IMG/VR virus record: IMGVR_UViG_3300026503_000257
Span: 1 to 22,686 of that record
Source: a virus
Direction: 5' to 3' (one strand)
Length of the DNA: 22,686 bases
Position numbers and translations under genes: made by a program. Numbering within the stretch: position 1 is the stretch's first letter; the number at the start of each line of letters is the position of its first letter. Positions 2,796-22,342 of this stretch are shown one piece after another. The notes under the pieces were generated by a model that searched no databases, was not told the DNA's origin, and saw only the letters and a list, made by a program, of their open reading frames with translations.

Positions 2796-3170
2796 TTAAT
2801 CTAGATCTTTAGCAAATTTTTCTACACTGGAGTCAGACAGTTTAAGCCACATAGCATCGTCCCCATTGAATAGATATAGAAATTTCTTATCTAGGTAGTA
2901 AGGCCACTGCATTTTTTCATGCAGTTTGATTAATAGAGATTTTTGTAGACCGGAATCTCCTAACATAAATTTATACGCCTCATATCTTTTTGATAGTACT
3001 TTGAAGCCTGTTGACGTTAATCTCAGACCTGACACAGTTGTGTCAGTATGTTGTAGATTTTTAAACATCATATAGCAGACCTCTTTGACTGTGAGAGGGG
3101 CCAATGCTTGGGTGTCTTGTTTTATTGCGCTACAAATTTGATATTGTATACTATTCTGCAATGTCGCCAT
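2796..3170 (-). CDS. Unknown 124-residue protein
   Basis: The product starts [20 protein letters not shown] and overlaps the end of the 104-residue gene by 20 bp. It is a mixed alpha/beta protein with a middle segment (about 48-75) rich in Leu, Ser and Lys, and a C-terminal segment rich in aromatic residues ([19 protein letters not shown]). No catalytic motif, signal peptide or membrane segment is visible. The tight overlap on one side and the one-base gap to the SGNH hydrolase on the other place it in a 104-residue/124-residue/SGNH/HNH run, probably under the late-type promoter at 3489-3496. I do not recognise the family; a virion or assembly role is only a guess from the late-type promoter. 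Confidence 0.75.
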
Positions 3171-3465
3171 TGATCTTATTTTCTATAATCTCAACGCCTT
3201 CAGTTAATCTTACTACAGTAAACTCTTTTGTATTAAAAGTTTTGTTTAGCTTTTCTGCAAGATTAAATGCATGGCCACTATTGCTAAAGGACACCTTTTT
3301 ATATTTAGGTCCAGGGTAAGATACTAATTTGTTGAGTGTGCGTAAATTAATTGGATTACCTTGGTAAAAGACGCTGTAGATAGCATCAGCTGCAAGAATT
3401 TGCTCTGCTCTGTATGTATCTTTATAAACTGCTTCTAACAGTATCGTGGGCTTTGGTCTACTCAT
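3151..3465 (-). CDS. Unknown 104-residue protein under hairpin/late-promoter control
   Basis: The product starts [18 protein letters not shown]. The N-terminal part ([25 protein letters not shown]) looks like a small alpha/beta domain. The middle is basic ([26 protein letters not shown]). I do not recognise it. The start at 3465 is chosen because AGGAGA precedes it by about 10 bases, and this site lies inside a 9-bp hairpin (3467-3488) directly next to a GATAAATA octamer. This suggests the protein is needed late and its translation from upstream read-through is suppressed. It overlaps the 124-residue gene by 20 bp. The start and regulation are clearer than the function. Confidence 0.75.
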
Positions 3466-3466
3466 G

Positions 3467-3488
3467 AGTGTATAGTCTCCTATACACT
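3467..3488 (-). promoter_or_regulatory. Translational hairpin sequestering a ribosome binding site
   Basis: On the minus strand AGTGTATAG-GAGA-CTATACACT is a perfect 9-bp stem with a GAGA (GNRA-type) loop. The Shine-Dalgarno AGGAGA spans the stem end and loop, and the ATG of the 104-residue gene lies one base past the stem. In long transcripts the site should be masked. Confidence 0.7.
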
Positions 3489-3496
3489 TATTTATC
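3489..3496 (-). promoter_or_regulatory. T4-type late promoter GATAAATA
   Basis: GATAAATA on the minus strand matches the T4 late consensus TATAAATA except at the first base. It abuts the hairpin at 3467-3488. In T4, transcription starts about six bases past the octamer, which would fall inside the 5' arm of the hairpin (around 3483), so late transcripts could not form it. The same octamer occurs once more on this strand, upstream of folE. Confidence 0.5.
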
Positions 3497-3526: not shown

Positions 3527-3763
3527 TCAAACAATATCTTTTTCTTTTAGAATTGCCATGAACTGTGTATACCCTCCAATGCTTTCTCCGTCTACAACAA
3601 TCTGGGGGAATGTTTTTGCGTTAGGGAATTGCTCTAGAAGTTCGTCTCTATTATAGTCCACATCTAGTTTCTTGACCGTATAATCGAGGTCACAAGACTG
3701 TGCTGCGTACTCTGCTGCGTCACAGTAAGGGCACTGTGGCTTGCTATATATTGTTACTTTCAT
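3527..3763 (-). CDS. Glutaredoxin
   Basis: A 78-residue thiol-disulfide oxidoreductase of the thioredoxin fold. The active-site motif CPYC is at residues 12-15 within KPQCPYCDAAEYAA. The cis-proline segment TFPQIVVDGESIGGY (about 51-65) with a GG pair for glutathione binding is complete, and the length is normal for a phage glutaredoxin. In T4-like phages glutaredoxin regenerates the phage ribonucleotide reductase with electrons from glutathione and so supports dNTP supply. No reductase gene lies in this window. The start is the ATG at 3763, preceded by AGAAAGAGG. The preceding 49-residue zinc-ribbon frame overlaps it by 20 bp. Confidence 0.93.
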   Translation of the reverse strand: MKVTIYSKPQCPYCDAAEYAAQSCDLDYTVKKLDVDYNRDELLEQFPNAKTFPQIVVDGESIGGYTQFMAILKEKDIV

Positions 3764-4603: not shown

Positions 4604-4790
4604 TTCGACTTTCTCCTTTCACTAAAATTCTAGGTTCGCTTGTACCAAATTGTCTGGCATAAACAGTTTTACCACCGTCTGGTGATTCGTAAATGTAAGG
4701 AACCTTTCCCTGAGTTCCGTATCTTCGTTGATAGTTTGGATTTTTCAACTTCTCAAACATCTCATCAATGTTACTGTCTAACTCGCCCAC
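4596..4790 (-). CDS. Unknown 64-residue protein, GTG start
   Basis: Starts with GTG at 4790 inside the end of the exonuclease gene (20 bp overlap). A GGAGA site seven bases upstream supports this start over the internal ATG at codon 11. The sequence has an acidic helical beginning (GELDSNIDEMFEKLKNP) followed by a Tyr/Gly/Arg-rich portion (YQRRYGTQGKVPYIYESPDGG) that ends in a basic segment. Such small Gly/Tyr/Arg-rich proteins often have extended structure. Function unknown. It overlaps the next gene by 8 bp. Confidence 0.7.
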   Translation of the reverse strand: MGELDSNIDEMFEKLKNPNYQRRYGTQGKVPYIYESPDGGKTVYARQFGTSEPRILVKGESRND

Positions 4791-5763
4791 CCAACATCTC
4801 CGAATACTGTGATGCGCTCTCGCCCATTCGCTGCAAGTTCCACTTACCGCAGAACTTCATAAAGTGCAGTCCGATAGTACCTACAGCATCCTTTGCTGAT
4901 TGTTCTTCTATAGCAAGTTTGCATCGTGTCTTTACTTCTTCTGGTTGCAACGTGAGGTCAATCAATATACGATTACGTTCGAAGTCATCCTTAACACGAT
5001 GTTCTACATCTTCGTGGTCTACCCAACGTTGTAACATAAAGTTATTGTAGTCAAACCCAGCATTCTTTCTATCTGCAAATGCCTCTGCAATACCAATCTT
5101 ATTCTTACTGCCTTTCTTCCTAGCACCAGGGTACGCACTGAACACGTTGTCAGTCGCATCACCACGCACACACTTCTCAAACAGAATATACTCAGGATCG
5201 CCTAATACCTTGTCTTCTCCTGTCTTCTTGTCTTTAACTATCTTACCTGTTTTGAGATCTTTAAACCCTTCAAGACTAACAACTTGATCAGTAGTGCCGT
5301 TATACTGCGTTACATTGGGAGCAATGAGCTGATAAAAGTCGCTGTCAGTACTAATAATGTAATGATTATCGTCTGGCTTCTGTTGGATCCAAGATGCTAT
5401 CAAATCATCTGCTTCTGCTGTAGGACAGTGTAGCACGGAGCAATTAGTCCTGTCCTTAAAGAACTGTACCATATCGTCGTATGCTTCAAAGTACATTTCA
5501 TCGTCTTCCTGCTCGCGGACACTACGCTTGTCTGCAACTACTTTACGGTTTGCTTTGTAAGGTGTAAAAAAGTCCTTACGCCAGCTACGGCCTTCTAAAC
5601 ATAGTACGATATGATCACCATCGAACTCTCTCCAACACTTGTTTAAACTGTTAAACATGATATGCATAGCCATGCCAATTTTAGTATCAATGTCCTGACC
5701 ACGCCCACCTACATGCTTTGCTCGCATAAACATGTTTAAGCCGTCAACTAACAAGTAATTCAT
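4771..5763 (-). CDS. rnh: 5'-3' exonuclease / T4 RNase H-like FEN nuclease
   Basis: A 330-residue flap-endonuclease family enzyme that removes RNA primers and 5' flaps during lagging-strand synthesis. Metal-ligand motifs are all present: VDGLN (D7), TAEADDLIASW (E117, D119, D120), ISTDSDFYQL (D140, D142) and VRGDATDN (D202, D205). T4 RNase H has 305 residues, so this is a little longer. The expected helix-hairpin-helix region follows after residue 205. The gene lies about 5 kb from the FolE gene and far from gp43. A promoter inside the preceding gene (5831-5859) would give it independent expression with a leader of about 60 nt. The start is the ATG at 5763, with AGGA about 10 bases upstream. 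Confidence 0.93.
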   Translation of the reverse strand: MNYLLVDGLNMFMRAKHVGGRGQDIDTKIGMAMHIMFNSLNKCWREFDGDHIVLCLEGRSWRKDFFTPYKANRKVVADKRSVREQEDDEMYFEAYDDMVQFFKDRTNCSVLHCPTAEADDLIASWIQQKPDDNHYIISTDSDFYQLIAPNVTQYNGTTDQVVSLEGFKDLKTGKIVKDKKTGEDKVLGDPEYILFEKCVRGDATDNVFSAYPGARKKGSKNKIGIAEAFADRKNAGFDYNNFMLQRWVDHEDVEHRVKDDFERNRILIDLTLQPEEVKTRCKLAIEEQSAKDAVGTIGLHFMKFCGKWNLQRMGESASQYSEMLGGRVRQ

Positions 5764-6515: not shown

Positions 6516-7403
6516 TTATTTTCCTATTGCGTTGCCATATATGTGTACGTGTACTCGGCTTGTGTAATTGTATCCACGTTGTATTGCTTCATCGGCTATA
6601 CTTGCTTCTGTTTGTACCAAGCCTTCGAATGTACCGCCGACACCCATAATCCATACTGGGAAGTTACATCCTGCTTCTCTGAATAGTTTGGTATTTTCTT
6701 CTACTTCTCTCCAACTTTCATCAGTGCCATTTACTACAAATTTTAGTTGACCACGACTAGAGACTTCGGCATACTTACCTACCACTTCAGGCTGAATAGC
6801 CTTTTTAGATTTCTCACCAGCAGTGCTCCACAGTTTAGGACTGATACTCCAATACCATTCTTTGCCTTCACATCTAGTATAACAACGATTAATATAATCA
6901 GCAAACTCGTCAGTGATAGGTCTAGTACCATTTGTTTCTACAGTAACAAAGTTGGGCATATTATCTCTTTTAGCAAACTCGTCTAACACACCAATCATAC
7001 CTGGCTGTGTGTTCTTTAACATAGGCTCGCCACCTGTAAACACCATGTGCGTTTCTTGTAATGTTGCAGGATGAATAAAGCTACCGTGCGGCAGAAGGGC
7101 TGTAAGCTCGTCTACTGCATCCTTTACACTACGATCGGTAATGAGATGCTTAAACTTCTTACTCCACGTATACGAACTATCACATCCTTTGTCAAACACA
7201 GGAAGATCAAACACATTATCGATGTGCGTGATATCAATTTTCTCATATGGTAAGTCGTATGTGCTAGGGTCAGTAGGATCTGTTTGACCAAAGCCATTGC
7301 ATTGTAAATTACACAAAAAGAATCTCATCCACAGGCTAGGTATGCCTACATACTGCCCTTCTCCTTGTGCTGAATAAAATGTTTCGCTGTACTTTAAGTT
7401 CAT
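6516..7403 (-). CDS. queE: 7-carboxy-7-deazaguanine synthase, QueE-like radical SAM enzyme
   Basis: A 295-residue radical SAM enzyme expected to convert 6-carboxytetrahydropterin (CPH4) into CDG, the third step of the preQ0 pathway. Family signs are the N-terminal SETFYSAQGEGQYVGIPSLW, cluster cysteines C31 and C35 (CNLQCNG), the SAM-binding MVFTGGEPML (about 120-129), VTVETNGT and SISPKL. The third cluster Cys appears to be C74 in KGCDSSYTW, which matches the CDTxxTW of QueE, but about 36 extra residues lie between C35 and C74. Length exceeds the usual 210-245. It overlaps the preceding 88-residue gene by 4 bp (ATGA). Together with FolE and QueD it forms a CDG-making set. An activase related to NrdG is less likely because of the SYTW and ETNGT context. 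Confidence 0.88.
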   Translation of the reverse strand: MNLKYSETFYSAQGEGQYVGIPSLWMRFFLCNLQCNGFGQTDPTDPSTYDLPYEKIDITHIDNVFDLPVFDKGCDSSYTWSKKFKHLITDRSVKDAVDELTALLPHGSFIHPATLQETHMVFTGGEPMLKNTQPGMIGVLDEFAKRDNMPNFVTVETNGTRPITDEFADYINRCYTRCEGKEWYWSISPKLWSTAGEKSKKAIQPEVVGKYAEVSSRGQLKFVVNGTDESWREVEENTKLFREAGCNFPVWIMGVGGTFEGLVQTEASIADEAIQRGYNYTSRVHVHIYGNAIGK

Positions 7404-8212: not shown

Positions 8213-8890
8213 TTATTTAGATGAGTTTACAATGTTCATGAATTCAGCACGAACGTCTGGTTCGTTCTTAAAGCAACCTCCTAGCTTGCTAGTGATTGTT
8301 GAGGAGCCTGTGTCCTCGACACCTCGACTCTTAACGCAATAATGTTGTGCATCAACAATAACTCCAATATTGGGCGTATCTAATATATACGACAATGCAT
8401 GATAAACTTGTTCAGTTAATCTTTCTTGGATTTGTGGACGTTTAGCAAAATATTCAACAACTCTGTTAAGTTTACTAAGTCCTAGCACTCTTTCATTTGG
8501 GATGTAGCCCACTGTAGCAACACCATCAATTACAACAAAGTGATGCTCGCAGTTTGATTGAACATTAATGTTACGCTCAATAACCATTTCGTCGTACTTC
8601 ATTTTATTGTCTACTGCTGTACACTTTGGGAATGCTTCGTAGTCAAGTCCCCAAAAGATTTCGTTAACATACATCTTTGCCACACGCTTAGGTGTGTCCA
8701 TAAGACTGTCATCTGAAAGGTCTAGCCCCATGACGTTCATGATGTTTTTAAAGTGTTCTTCGATTAGATCAATTTTATCTGTACGAGAAAACCCGTTGTT
8801 ATCAACTGGTGTTTCAACACCCATCTTTACTAGATGTTCGTGTACTCTGCGACCCAGATCTGGGTCAGTTTTAGTCTTATTATAAGCCAT
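8213..8890 (-). CDS. folE: GTP cyclohydrolase I, FolE
   Basis: A 225-residue enzyme that opens GTP to 7,8-dihydroneopterin triphosphate, the first step toward deazaguanines and folate. The zinc ligands are visible: C114 in CEHHFVVIDG with H116/H117, and C185 in AQHYCVKSRGVED. The C-terminal part of the active site, with TGSSTITS and a GCF ending, is complete. Length matches the bacterial enzyme (about 222). The start at 8890 has a strong AGGAAGGAG site, and the gene lies behind a composite promoter region (8943-8972). In this window it feeds QueD and QueE, so the purpose is most likely base modification, not folate. It acts as a decamer in the cytoplasm in other organisms. Confidence 0.96.
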   Translation of the reverse strand: MAYNKTKTDPDLGRRVHEHLVKMGVETPVDNNGFSRTDKIDLIEEHFKNIMNVMGLDLSDDSLMDTPKRVAKMYVNEIFWGLDYEAFPKCTAVDNKMKYDEMVIERNINVQSNCEHHFVVIDGVATVGYIPNERVLGLSKLNRVVEYFAKRPQIQERLTEQVYHALSYILDTPNIGVIVDAQHYCVKSRGVEDTGSSTITSKLGGCFKNEPDVRAEFMNIVNSSK

Positions 8891-8951: not shown

Positions 8952-8972
8952 TTTATATTTATCAACTGTCAA
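8943..8972 (-). promoter_or_regulatory. Composite promoter region for folE
   Basis: On the minus strand TTGACA (8967-8972) and TACACA (8943-8948) stand 18 bp apart, a plausible sigma70 promoter, and between them lies GATAAATA (8956-8963), a T4-type late octamer. The region overlaps the end of the upstream 64-residue gene. It suggests that folE can be transcribed both early by unmodified host polymerase and late. Confidence 0.45.
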
Positions 8973-9156: not shown

Positions 9157-9617
9157 TACTTCCACCATTCCTCATAAGGAAAAACGATCCAATTGTTATC
9201 CTCAAGTTCAATTTCTTCTGCATAATAGTCTACACCATCGAACGAACTTGATTGCTTGTTAAATATTGTAGCATATCTGATGTCAGAATACAAGCTATTA
9301 TTTTTATTAATAGCTTCAGATATACCAGACAGAGTGCTACCAGTGTCGTTGATATCATCGATAACAAGAATATCTGTGTTACTATGATTGCTTAAAATAC
9401 TTTGTAGTTGTTCAGCATCTTCGAAATCACCATCCCTTGTTTGCCAGTTGAATCCTTCGAACGGAACGTTTAAATAGTGACTGAGCATTACACCGGGTAT
9501 ATATCCTCCTCTACCAGGCCCAATTACTACACCTGGATTAAACGAGTCCAAGGAAATCATACGCACCAAATCAGCAAGGTATGATTCTAAATCATCCCAT
9601 GTATAAAATTTCTTCAT
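9156..9617 (-). CDS. Phosphoribosyltransferase
   Basis: A 153-residue type I phosphoribosyltransferase-fold protein. The PRPP-binding loop ILVIDDINDTGSTL (about residues 82-95) with the adjacent Asp pair is typical, and the P-P loop region VVIGPGRGGYIPGVML (about 30-45) resembles hypoxanthine/xanthine-guanine transferases. The length fits the Gpt type. Such enzymes join a nucleobase to PRPP. In this phage it could salvage guanine/xanthine for nucleotide supply, or act on a deazapurine, which is speculative. The start is the ATG at 9617, overlapping the epimerase stop (TGATG). The GTG one codon upstream is a less likely start. Confidence 0.85.
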   Translation of the reverse strand: MKKFYTWDDLESYLADLVRMISLDSFNPGVVIGPGRGGYIPGVMLSHYLNVPFEGFNWQTRDGDFEDAEQLQSILSNHSNTDILVIDDINDTGSTLSGISEAINKNNSLYSDIRYATIFNKQSSSFDGVDYYAEEIELEDNNWIVFPYEEWWK

Positions 9618-19426: not shown

Positions 19427-19659
19427 GCTGATTCCGAGTCTTTTCTTCGATTTCTTTTTTCAAAATATAATCTCATGTATGTTTTTCTTGCTATTGCTAC
19501 TACTGTGAATATGATTGTAAAGAAAATGGTTGTTAATAGCACAGACATTTCGTATGTTCTTGCAATAACAATCAGTCCCATGTTTAACGGAAAGTTAATT
19601 AATAATGCAATGCCAGTGTCTGCTACTGCCTCTTTAAACGCCGCAAATTTAGAATTCAA
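19423..19659 (-). CDS. Small two-helix membrane protein (DUF7220-like), TTG start
   Basis: 78 residues with two membrane segments (about 13-32 and 37-56) and a basic C-terminal tail (RKTYMRLYFEKRNRRK). The start TTG at 19659 is chosen because GGAGG stands six bases upstream, whereas a GTG at 19680 has no such site. The pattern FPLNMGL, then IFFTIIFTVVAIARKTYMRLYF, resembles small phage membrane proteins of the DUF7220 kind (P near the end of helix one, a T-V-x-S/A-I-x-R-x-Y-x-x-R helix two). It overlaps gp43 by 11 bp. Function unknown, possibly membrane anchoring of replication or a role in lysis. Confidence 0.65.
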   Translation of the reverse strand: MNSKFAAFKEAVADTGIALLINFPLNMGLIVIARTYEMSVLLTTIFFTIIFTVVAIARKTYMRLYFEKRNRRKDSESA

Positions 19660-22342
19660 AGAATGCCTCCAGTGTTTCACTTTCGTTAGCTCTATTAAGA
19701 TCCCATCCCATAATGCCGATCACATTACCAATCTTCTTATCTAGTACAGCCTTTTCCATAGCCTCTTCATCGAACGGCAAATCTTTAAACCATTGAGGCA
19801 ACTGAAGTTCGTCTGTAGGATATGCTATGCTGGCATAGTTCATTGCATTATTCTTCAAGCGGCAAACGACTACCTTAGCACCATCCATAATTGATGTGCT
19901 ATAGTTATCGCTGTTCGCAAATTTTAGATTGTTGTAATTAATACTAGCACGTACATGTCCTGGTATCATTTTGTTTTCTTTTTCTTCCTTTAACGCATTT
20001 AACTTATACAAACGTTCATGCCCACCTGGGCCTTTGATTTGTTTGTTATACTTTTTTGTGTATGTAGTCAAATTGTTCACACGCTTAGGCATACCTTTAC
20101 GCCAAGGATCCATTGAGCGAAACTCCTTCTTGAACTCTTTGATTTTTAAGATAACATCATCTTCGGTAAAGCCTTCTAATGCATCATCGAGGATCTCTTC
20201 TAGGAAGTCTTGTACGAACTCAGGCGTGTCTGAACGCTTAATGTCCATACCCATGATCTTTAGTTTGCCGCCTTCTGGCTGCCAGCCTTCTAAGTCTAGC
20301 ACCTTAATAGCATAACGCTTCTTAGTAATAAACACACCTGACTTTCCAACTACTTCTCTACCTGCCTTCATTACAGCGCCAGCTGACAGCGGAACATTAA
20401 ATGTATCGTGTAACCATTGTGGGAAAGTATCACTAACAGTATCTGAAACATGGTCGTACAATTTAATAGCACCTTCCATATCTAGCGTTTGTCCTTCTGG
20501 CAACGCCGGAACAGCACTAAAATACACAGAGTCAGTATCACCGTATATCATACAGTCTCCTGTGTGATCATACTTACCTGTGAACAGTTCGTTTGTTTTC
20601 GCCCCCATATGTTTCGTGATTGCTCTGCCAGTGAGCGTTGTACTTTGCCCAATGCGCTTATCGTAAAACCTACAACCCGGATTAAGAATAGCACCATACA
20701 AACTGTTCAAGTTAATCTTCTTAACCAACTGTCTTTTATCCCAAAATGCAATCTGCTCAGGGTCAGTGGCTTCTTTCTTCTTTGCTTGCAGTTCTTGCCG
20801 CTCTGCATACCAACGCTCTAGTAGTCCTGGCACAATGCCTTGGAAGTCTGTTCTAAAGATAGTACCGTTAGCACTAATGTTCCAAGGTTGCCCAGAGTTA
20901 AAAATTAAATTATACACGTCAGCGCCTGTAGTTTCTACGCTACCACCAGTCTCCATATCCAATATTAGAGGCTTGTTTATGTCCTTATCCATCACAAGCT
21001 CATATTCGTTGCTTCCGAACTTGCCTAACCATGCGTCAGCAAATGAGCTTTTCTCAAGTTTCATTTTACTATCAATTTCTTCGTCAGTATAGACAGGCTT
21101 GAGCTGACCTACTATAGTCTCCGGAGCCATGTTAAGTGCTCTAAACACACTAGGATACAGTGAATTCAAATCCATACTGCCAATCCATTTGTGGAAACCT
21201 TTCTTAGGGAATGCAACATACGCACCAGCTGCTTGTGTACTTTCACCCGGATCGCTACGCCTTCTGTCAGGGACTACATATCCACGCCGGTGTGCTTCGT
21301 TAATGATTGCTTGCTCTGTGGTTGCTACAGCACCCATCGTAGTAAACAGCAATACAGTGTTATCGTGAGCGATAGTATTTGCTAAGTCGATGAACTGTAA
21401 TTTTTTATCTAACTTGTCCAGCAACATAACGTCTTGGATATTATATTCAATGAACTTAGCATAGTCATGATTATAAAGACGATCTAATGATCCTTCGTAT
21501 GCAACTTTCTTTTCGCCTACTTCGATCTCGCCGATAAAGTCTAGTCTGTAACTGTGTCGCTCTTCATAATTGAACTTTCTATACAATTGCATATAGTCCA
21601 AATGCACACGCCCTACTAGGTCATAGCTCTGTCGTTCCTCACCGAAGTTATCATACGTCCTATCTTTTGGAAGTTGATCAAATAAGCACAGTTTTCGAGT
21701 TTCTGCCTTGCCTAGTACTTTGATAATACGATTAACAGTATACGGAATATCATATCCTTCACTGTTCCATCCACTTAGAATGTCTGCATCATCTATCAAT
21801 TGCAAAAAGACTTTAAGCATTTCGGCTTCGTCTTTGAACAACAACACTTCTTTATACTGACTGCCAATGGCTTGGGCTTGCTCCCAAGTAAGTGTCTTAG
21901 GTGGGACTGTTAAACACACCATTGCGTCCATCCACTGCAAGTAAACACCGATAGCTGTGATAGGCATGAATGCTTCTTCGGGTGAACTAAAACCTCTTAC
22001 TGGGTCAAAGTCCACCTCAATATCAAACATACATGTATGTAGCTTTGGCGGCTCTACTCCGTTATAATGTAATGCAAGTGTCTTGTTCAGAGGCTTAATA
22101 TCAGTCTCGAATAGTTTTCCACTTTTTCTAGCAATAGCTACATTCTTTCTGAAATCTTTGAAGTTTTTGCATGATACTTCAGTGACTTTGTCACCATACA
22201 CGCTTTGTGATTTGCCCTTAGGATCTGGGTAATAAAAATTGTACACCGGCTTATGCTCAGTGATAATTCGCTTGCCGTCAACACGCTCTGACACATGTAT
22301 GACATCGCGACTCTTGTCATGATGTGCATCAACATAACTCAT
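19649..22342 (-). CDS. 43: DNA polymerase, family B, gp43
   Basis: 897 residues against 898 in T4. The exonuclease motifs are FDIEVD (D107, E109), LSGWNSEGYDIPY (190-201) and Y300-NIQD304. The polymerase motifs are A, SMDLNSLYPS (D391); B, KKINLNSLYGA (541-551); and C, IYGDTDSVY (599-607). All catalytic residues are present, so the enzyme should replicate with proofreading. The last residues, ETLEAFFEF, match the clamp-binding peptide of T4 polymerase. The start is the ATG at 22342, with AAGGAG upstream and a hairpin at 22360-22381 that may be a translational operator. A modified-base phage needs a polymerase and clamp that tolerate deazaguanine, but nothing in the sequence shows an adaptation. 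Confidence 0.97.
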   Translation of the reverse strand: MSYVDAHHDKSRDVIHVSERVDGKRIITEHKPVYNFYYPDPKGKSQSVYGDKVTEVSCKNFKDFRKNVAIARKSGKLFETDIKPLNKTLALHYNGVEPPKLHTCMFDIEVDFDPVRGFSSPEEAFMPITAIGVYLQWMDAMVCLTVPPKTLTWEQAQAIGSQYKEVLLFKDEAEMLKVFLQLIDDADILSGWNSEGYDIPYTVNRIIKVLGKAETRKLCLFDQLPKDRTYDNFGEERQSYDLVGRVHLDYMQLYRKFNYEERHSYRLDFIGEIEVGEKKVAYEGSLDRLYNHDYAKFIEYNIQDVMLLDKLDKKLQFIDLANTIAHDNTVLLFTTMGAVATTEQAIINEAHRRGYVVPDRRRSDPGESTQAAGAYVAFPKKGFHKWIGSMDLNSLYPSVFRALNMAPETIVGQLKPVYTDEEIDSKMKLEKSSFADAWLGKFGSNEYELVMDKDINKPLILDMETGGSVETTGADVYNLIFNSGQPWNISANGTIFRTDFQGIVPGLLERWYAERQELQAKKKEATDPEQIAFWDKRQLVKKINLNSLYGAILNPGCRFYDKRIGQSTTLTGRAITKHMGAKTNELFTGKYDHTGDCMIYGDTDSVYFSAVPALPEGQTLDMEGAIKLYDHVSDTVSDTFPQWLHDTFNVPLSAGAVMKAGREVVGKSGVFITKKRYAIKVLDLEGWQPEGGKLKIMGMDIKRSDTPEFVQDFLEEILDDALEGFTEDDVILKIKEFKKEFRSMDPWRKGMPKRVNNLTTYTKKYNKQIKGPGGHERLYKLNALKEEKENKMIPGHVRASINYNNLKFANSDNYSTSIMDGAKVVVCRLKNNAMNYASIAYPTDELQLPQWFKDLPFDEEAMEKAVLDKKIGNVIGIMGWDLNRANESETLEAFFEF

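Follow-up and report, generated by a model that had tools for sequence, protein, structure and literature searches.

Why is the ribosome-binding site of a small, conserved phage gene folded into a perfect hairpin that begins directly behind an octamer of the T4 late-promoter type? This arrangement is found in the 22.7-kb IMG/VR fragment IMGVR_UViG_3300026503_000257, which was analysed over its whole length of 22,686 nucleotides (hereafter, the window) and which also encodes a T4-type DNA polymerase (positions 19649–22342) and a PolI-type exonuclease (4771–5763). A leader and gene identical to those of the window are present in a 340-kb contig of the same phage (L081 = G001).

Organization of the locus

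Read on the minus strand from position 3496 to 3463, the sequence is GATAAATA AGTGTATAG GAGA CTATACACT C ATG. The octamer GATAAATA (positions 3489–3496) is followed by the 5' arm of the hairpin, AGTGTATAG (3480–3488), a GAGA tetraloop (3476–3479), and the 3' arm, CTATACACT (3467–3475), which ends one base before the start codon. The hairpin (3488–3467) thereby forms a perfect 9-bp stem closed by the GAGA loop, with the ATG at 3465–3463. The Shine-Dalgarno sequence AGGAGA (3476–3481), located 10 nt before the ATG, has its first two bases within the stem, and its last four constitute the loop. The first-pass annotation had described an octamer abutting a perfect 9-bp GAGA-loop hairpin that holds AGGAGA and is followed by the ATG, and both its description and its coordinates proved exact.

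The gene behind this hairpin (3151–3465, minus strand) encodes a conserved phage protein of 104 aa (MSRPKPT...) with at least 591 relatives in IMG/VR; among cultured phages, relatives occur in PA5oct and its kin, Atu_ph07, Phosso and SCTP-2. Identity to the window protein is 60–80% in the aligned IMG/VR relatives and falls to 38% in SCTP-2. No match was found in PHROGs, the sole Pfam match was sub-threshold (SspH, small acid-soluble spore protein, residues 16–45), and these searches revealed neither a GIY-YIG nor an HNH endonuclease domain; blastn against the phage collection found nothing. The AlphaFold model shows a confident small fold (pLDDT 86), and a fold search with this model retrieved no PDB match and only two uncharacterised viral proteins; the protein may represent a new small fold.

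Upstream and co-directional lies a glutaredoxin/thioredoxin-like gene (3527–3763, minus strand; PHROG 22, E = 1e-18), whose stop codon is situated 30 nt before the octamer. The terminator scan found no terminator-like site between this gene and the octamer, and the gene is a possible source of read-through RNA.

The octamer as a probable late promoter

In the 340-kb contig, GATAAATA occurs 61 times, versus 15 occurrences of the reversed pattern used as a control, and 46 of the 61 copies have an ATG within 90 nt that opens an ORF of at least 60 aa. The same phage encodes a homologue of gp55, the T4 late sigma factor (E = 7e-24), and gp55 matches were also present in eight of the ten other related records searched, T4 left aside. 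Since the octamer is enriched, is followed by ORFs and is accompanied by a gp55 homologue, GATAAATA is very probably the late promoter of this phage, and its recurrence in homologous leaders, described below, is consistent with this assignment. Within the 22.7-kb window, DATAAATA showed no enrichment (four copies found, 6.2 expected). The T4 clamp Pfam model matched nothing in the relatives, a result counted neither way because the clamps may be too diverged.

The only other GATAAATA in the window (8956–8963, minus strand) is located 65 nt before a GTP cyclohydrolase gene (8890–8213), and a TGCTAC/GTAGCA hairpin comes next after it. On the same strand, a QueE-like gene (6516–7403) and the GTP cyclohydrolase gene (8213–8890) lie near one another, a pairing that suggests a 7-deazaguanine pathway, perhaps serving DNA modification.

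In T4, late transcription starts roughly a helical turn beyond the TATA box (PMC2988020). With this layout, the predicted late start of the window gene is position 3483 on the minus strand, 6 nt past the octamer, and five of the nine bases of the 5' arm lie upstream of it. The octamer-ATG spacing in the 340-kb contig points to the same start: it is exactly 5 nt in 12 of the 46 genes, 6 nt in three and 0–4 nt in none, with single cases at 7 and 10 nt and the next group beginning at 17 nt. An SD-like motif is present in 24 of the 29 leaders of at least 15 nt. The spike at 5 nt recurs in a second phage (G003), where most of the ORFs exceed 120 aa, and is missing from T4 in the same pattern search; examples are L098, L100, L106 and L117 in the 340-kb contig (G001) and L310–L324 in the second phage. 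Given a T4-like start and a spacing of 5 nt, these late mRNAs would begin at the AUG. Among the papers searched, none on leaderless late mRNAs in gp55-type phages was found.

Predicted masking of the ribosome-binding site in the window

Both the minimum-free-energy and the centroid fold of the gene strand contain the 9-bp hairpin. The stability of the whole 121-nt gene-strand stretch is ordinary (z = −1.0), so folding energy alone shows nothing above chance, and fold stability was left out of the evidence for this reason. A fold of the + strand, with a 12-bp hairpin and a z of −3.8, was dropped because that strand is antisense. No meaningful match was obtained in Rfam.

The cost of opening the RNA from the Shine-Dalgarno sequence to the ATG distinguishes the two expected transcripts. 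It is predicted to be 11.3 kcal/mol in read-through RNA versus 3.3 kcal/mol when the RNA starts at octamer +6, in which case the fold prediction leaves 4 bp of the stem. Both values agree with what the first-pass annotation had proposed, namely that read-through RNA keeps the site masked and that a start about 6 nt past the octamer frees it. When the assumed start offset was varied, the cost was 7.6 kcal/mol at 4, 4.0 at 5 and 3.3 at 6, and this order was unchanged at 25 and 15 °C; all the other energies reported here are model values at 37 °C. The masking difference of the window was matched by none of 20 dinucleotide shuffles of the leader, and the gene ranks second for hairpin masking among the 46 octamer-followed genes of the 340-kb contig. 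The remaining 4-bp stem is predicted to be weak; if it still formed in the late RNA, it could count as a point against the regulation proposed below.

Conservation of the octamer and of masking in relatives

We assembled 183 leaders, consisting of a first set of 85 (that of the window included) and a hold-out of 98 distinct leaders taken from two additional scans; each scan comprised the best 80 matches, and the hold-out leans to close relatives of one clade. The leaders of relatives are mostly unalignable. In 180 of the 183, a T4-late-type octamer nevertheless lies no more than 70 nt from the start codon, with [N][AC]TAAATA found within 70 nt of the ATG in 83 of the 85 first-set leaders and 97 of the 98 hold-out leaders.

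A finder of longest stems was discarded, as it returned many spurious AT-rich stems, and opening energies were used instead. Masking was measured as the cost of opening positions −14 to +3, comparing an RNA that begins 60 nt upstream of the octamer end with one that begins at octamer +6. By this measure, the first-set leaders lost on average 5.99 kcal/mol at the late start, against 2.02 kcal/mol for dinucleotide-shuffled leaders (p = 3e-13), and those of at least 12 nt lost 6.49 kcal/mol. The hold-out behaved likewise, with a mean loss of 6.89 kcal/mol versus 1.49 kcal/mol for mononucleotide-shuffled leaders (p = 1e-17; 97 leaders), the loss being at least 3 kcal/mol in 89 of the 97. The control, consisting of the other octamer-driven genes in the same loci, each assigned to its first plausible ATG, showed a mean loss of 1.75 kcal/mol (p = 1.5e-14), and a loss of 5 kcal/mol was reached by 64% of the targets versus 10% of the control genes.

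The dependence on the start position was pronounced. The mean opening cost in the hold-out was 7.8 kcal/mol at offset 1, 5.7 at 4, 3.9 at 5 and 3.6 at 6, declining slowly thereafter. Because the cost collapses between offsets 4 and 5, the leader geometry is tuned to a T4-type start. This collapse and, independently of it, the 5-nt spacing indirectly support a late start at octamer +6, which would lie inside the 5' arm.

To evaluate the pairing of the two arms, the 5' part of one leader was joined to the 3' part of another. Masking with the leader's own partner exceeded that with a swapped one in the first set (6.50 versus 2.55 kcal/mol; own better in 56 of 65, p = 2e-9) as well as in the hold-out (6.89 versus 4.78 kcal/mol; own better in 74 of 97, p = 2.5e-9). 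In an alignable group, TATRYGTA, the own partner was better in 26 of 26, and the third stem position is occupied by G-C in 13 leaders, A-U in 12 and G-U in one. The sequences in all these comparisons are related and are not independent events. Loss of the stem in relatives had been set beforehand, in the first-pass annotation, as the outcome that would speak against the hairpin; across the 180 leaders, the octamer or the sequence before it continues to be needed for masking, which in most of them is predicted only for RNA that reaches upstream of the octamer, and the arms co-vary.

Masking was weak or unclear in L014, L018, L020, L021, L028, L033, L034, L040, L045 and SCTP-2, and weak in Phosso and PA5oct. 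A same-strand ORF ends at most about 45 nt from the octamer in all but a few loci. In some relatives its stop codon adjoins the octamer, and there a terminating ribosome might open the hairpin.

Three leader architectures

The relatives realise the masking in different ways. Most relatives share the layout of the window leader, with a 5' arm that begins within the octamer or directly behind it and a 3' arm that reaches the AUG or stops close to it. The octamer occupies the loop or upper stem in L004, L008, L017, L026, L038, L053 and Atu_ph07, where the 5' arm is upstream of it; masking in Atu_ph07 is strong, at 6.8 kcal/mol. A third class comprises 15 first-set leaders with an octamer-ATG spacing of 5–10 nt; its masking is weaker, with a mean of 3.7 kcal/mol versus 2.4 kcal/mol for shuffles. 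As the ATG follows almost directly after the octamer in this class, the late RNA would carry little or no leader.

Comparable leaders were also observed at other genes. In the 340-kb contig (G001), a hairpin comes right after the octamer at a 231-aa gene (L134: AGTGTAA CGAGGAG TTTTACACTT ATG) and at a 492-aa gene (L097: CTGCT ATACTG AGCAGGATATAAT ATG), and both may be under the same kind of control. In L020, an octamer of its own, GCTAAATA (end near base 9510, + strand), precedes the glutaredoxin-like gene that lies upstream of the target, and the masking of that gene's leader drops by 7.6 kcal/mol when RNA begins at the late start.

A probable late-only translational lock and its alternatives

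We consider it highly likely that translation of the gene is locked until late infection in the manner of T4 gene e, a proposal that is strong as an in silico inference and unproven as biochemistry. Read-through RNA from the upstream replication-region genes would carry both arms, and its 9-bp hairpin would hold the Shine-Dalgarno sequence and the bases beside the AUG, blocking translation. The gp55-like sigma factor would start RNA at GATAAATA, with the first base falling within the 5' arm, some 6 nt beyond the octamer. In this late RNA only 4 bp of the stem could form; the ribosome-binding site would open and the protein would be made.

Alternatively, the hairpin could be an autoregulatory operator, with translation repressed through binding of the 104-aa protein or of a different phage protein, like T4 gp43 on its own mRNA. 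Such operators exist in T4 (PMC3014915), and the hairpin directly precedes a small conserved protein, at the start region of its own gene. An operator recognised by its sequence would be expected to retain the bases that are read, yet the stems and loops differ widely in sequence, as do the length of the loop and the register, even though the proteins are 60–80% identical, and the conserved recognition sequence or loop expected of a gp43/gp32/RegA-type operator is absent among the relatives. The constant feature is instead where the 5' arm lies with respect to the late start. Because the stem and loop sequences vary so freely, we regard an operator as unlikely.

Still less probable is that the inverted repeat is part of the promoter, serving as a DNA hairpin or protein-binding palindrome required for initiation, as in phage N4. 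The repeat does abut or enclose the octamer in many relatives. However, it is missing from most other octamer promoters in the same loci, which makes this explanation improbable, and in leaders ranging from 5 to 55 nt its 3' arm keeps to the start codon and shows no constant spacing from the octamer.

An attenuator or terminator that halts read-through RNA before the gene ranks lower again. Its stem would be just 9 bp with three G-C pairs, and the hairpin is followed by C-ATG-AGTAG; the lack of a T-run after the hairpin makes termination unlikely. What lends the idea some appeal is that a terminator-like hairpin stands upstream of the octamer in a few relatives with weak or no masking, namely L014, L020, L021, L084 (Phosso) and L086 (PA5oct), a pattern that involves few lineages, comes from a post hoc scan and depends on the terminator criteria. 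The placement of these hairpins suggests that in the five relatives a terminator may replace masking, and it is because of them that blocking read-through expression seems to be what matters, a need that both solutions would share. Least probable of all is that the inverted repeat arose by chance in the AT-rich leader DNA and regulates nothing, a reading that agrees with the ordinary stability of the whole-leader fold (z = −1.0) and is already refuted for the family as a whole by the shuffle, control-gene, swapped-partner and hold-out tests.

Relation to known translational locks

The late-only lock favoured here has published precedents. In T4 gene e, the read-through RNA folds and masks the ribosome-binding site, and RNA from the late promoters directly before it, which lacks the 5' strand of the structure, is translated (PMC3014915). 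Measured in the same way, the gene e leader shows the same opening-energy signature as the window leader, with masking of 11.6 and 14.0 kcal/mol from its two promoters. The two loci differ in that the window gene has one promoter rather than two, in the octamer (GATAAATA versus TATAAATA in gene e), in the location of the Shine-Dalgarno sequence, which in the window lies mostly in the GAGA loop, and in their products, gene e encoding lysozyme, to which the window gene is unrelated. The lysozyme-like gene of the window phage itself has an octamer and no such hairpin.

T4 soc and gene 49 are late genes whose Shine-Dalgarno sequence or AUG is likewise sequestered in long RNAs (PMC3014915). The first-pass annotation had cited genes e and soc as examples of the same timing mechanism. 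Both are indeed published cases and gene e scores high; soc, by contrast, has a weakly structured leader of only 1.8 kcal/mol by our measure, and since soc is a reported case, the measure is imperfect.

A late RNA lacking the 5' part of a hairpin that masks the ribosome-binding site has also been described for T4 I-TevI, I-TevII, I-TevIII and segB and for Aeh1 mobE (PMC2988022). These resemble the window gene in the placement of the late promoter. They are homing endonucleases encoded by mobile genes, whereas the window gene is conserved, occurs in hundreds of contigs and encodes no endonuclease domain. The mechanism, of the T4 e/I-TevI type, is thus already known; the gene, the breadth of conservation and the apparent leaderless form in relatives are new.

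More tentatively, in a generalization that we judge slightly less probable than its opposite, a large group of uncultivated jumbo T4-like phages would place this lock on one conserved gene, with the octamer either at the base of the 5' arm or within the loop of a hairpin over the ribosome-binding site. That hairpin would have been rebuilt many times, and in one subgroup (octamer, 5 nt, ATG) the late RNA would begin at the AUG itself, so that the lock would exchange a start codon hidden in a hairpin for an mRNA with no leader. Some of these gp55-type phages would then use leaderless late mRNAs generally.

Locks of the T4 type have been described for single genes, mostly those of mobile endonucleases, lysis and a few late proteins. 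That the same lock is kept over very diverse phages on one highly conserved gene suggests that early production of its protein is selected against, and the lock provides a first handle on this protein family. The octamer-ATG spacing, in turn, predicts where late RNAs begin and that one class of them has no leader.
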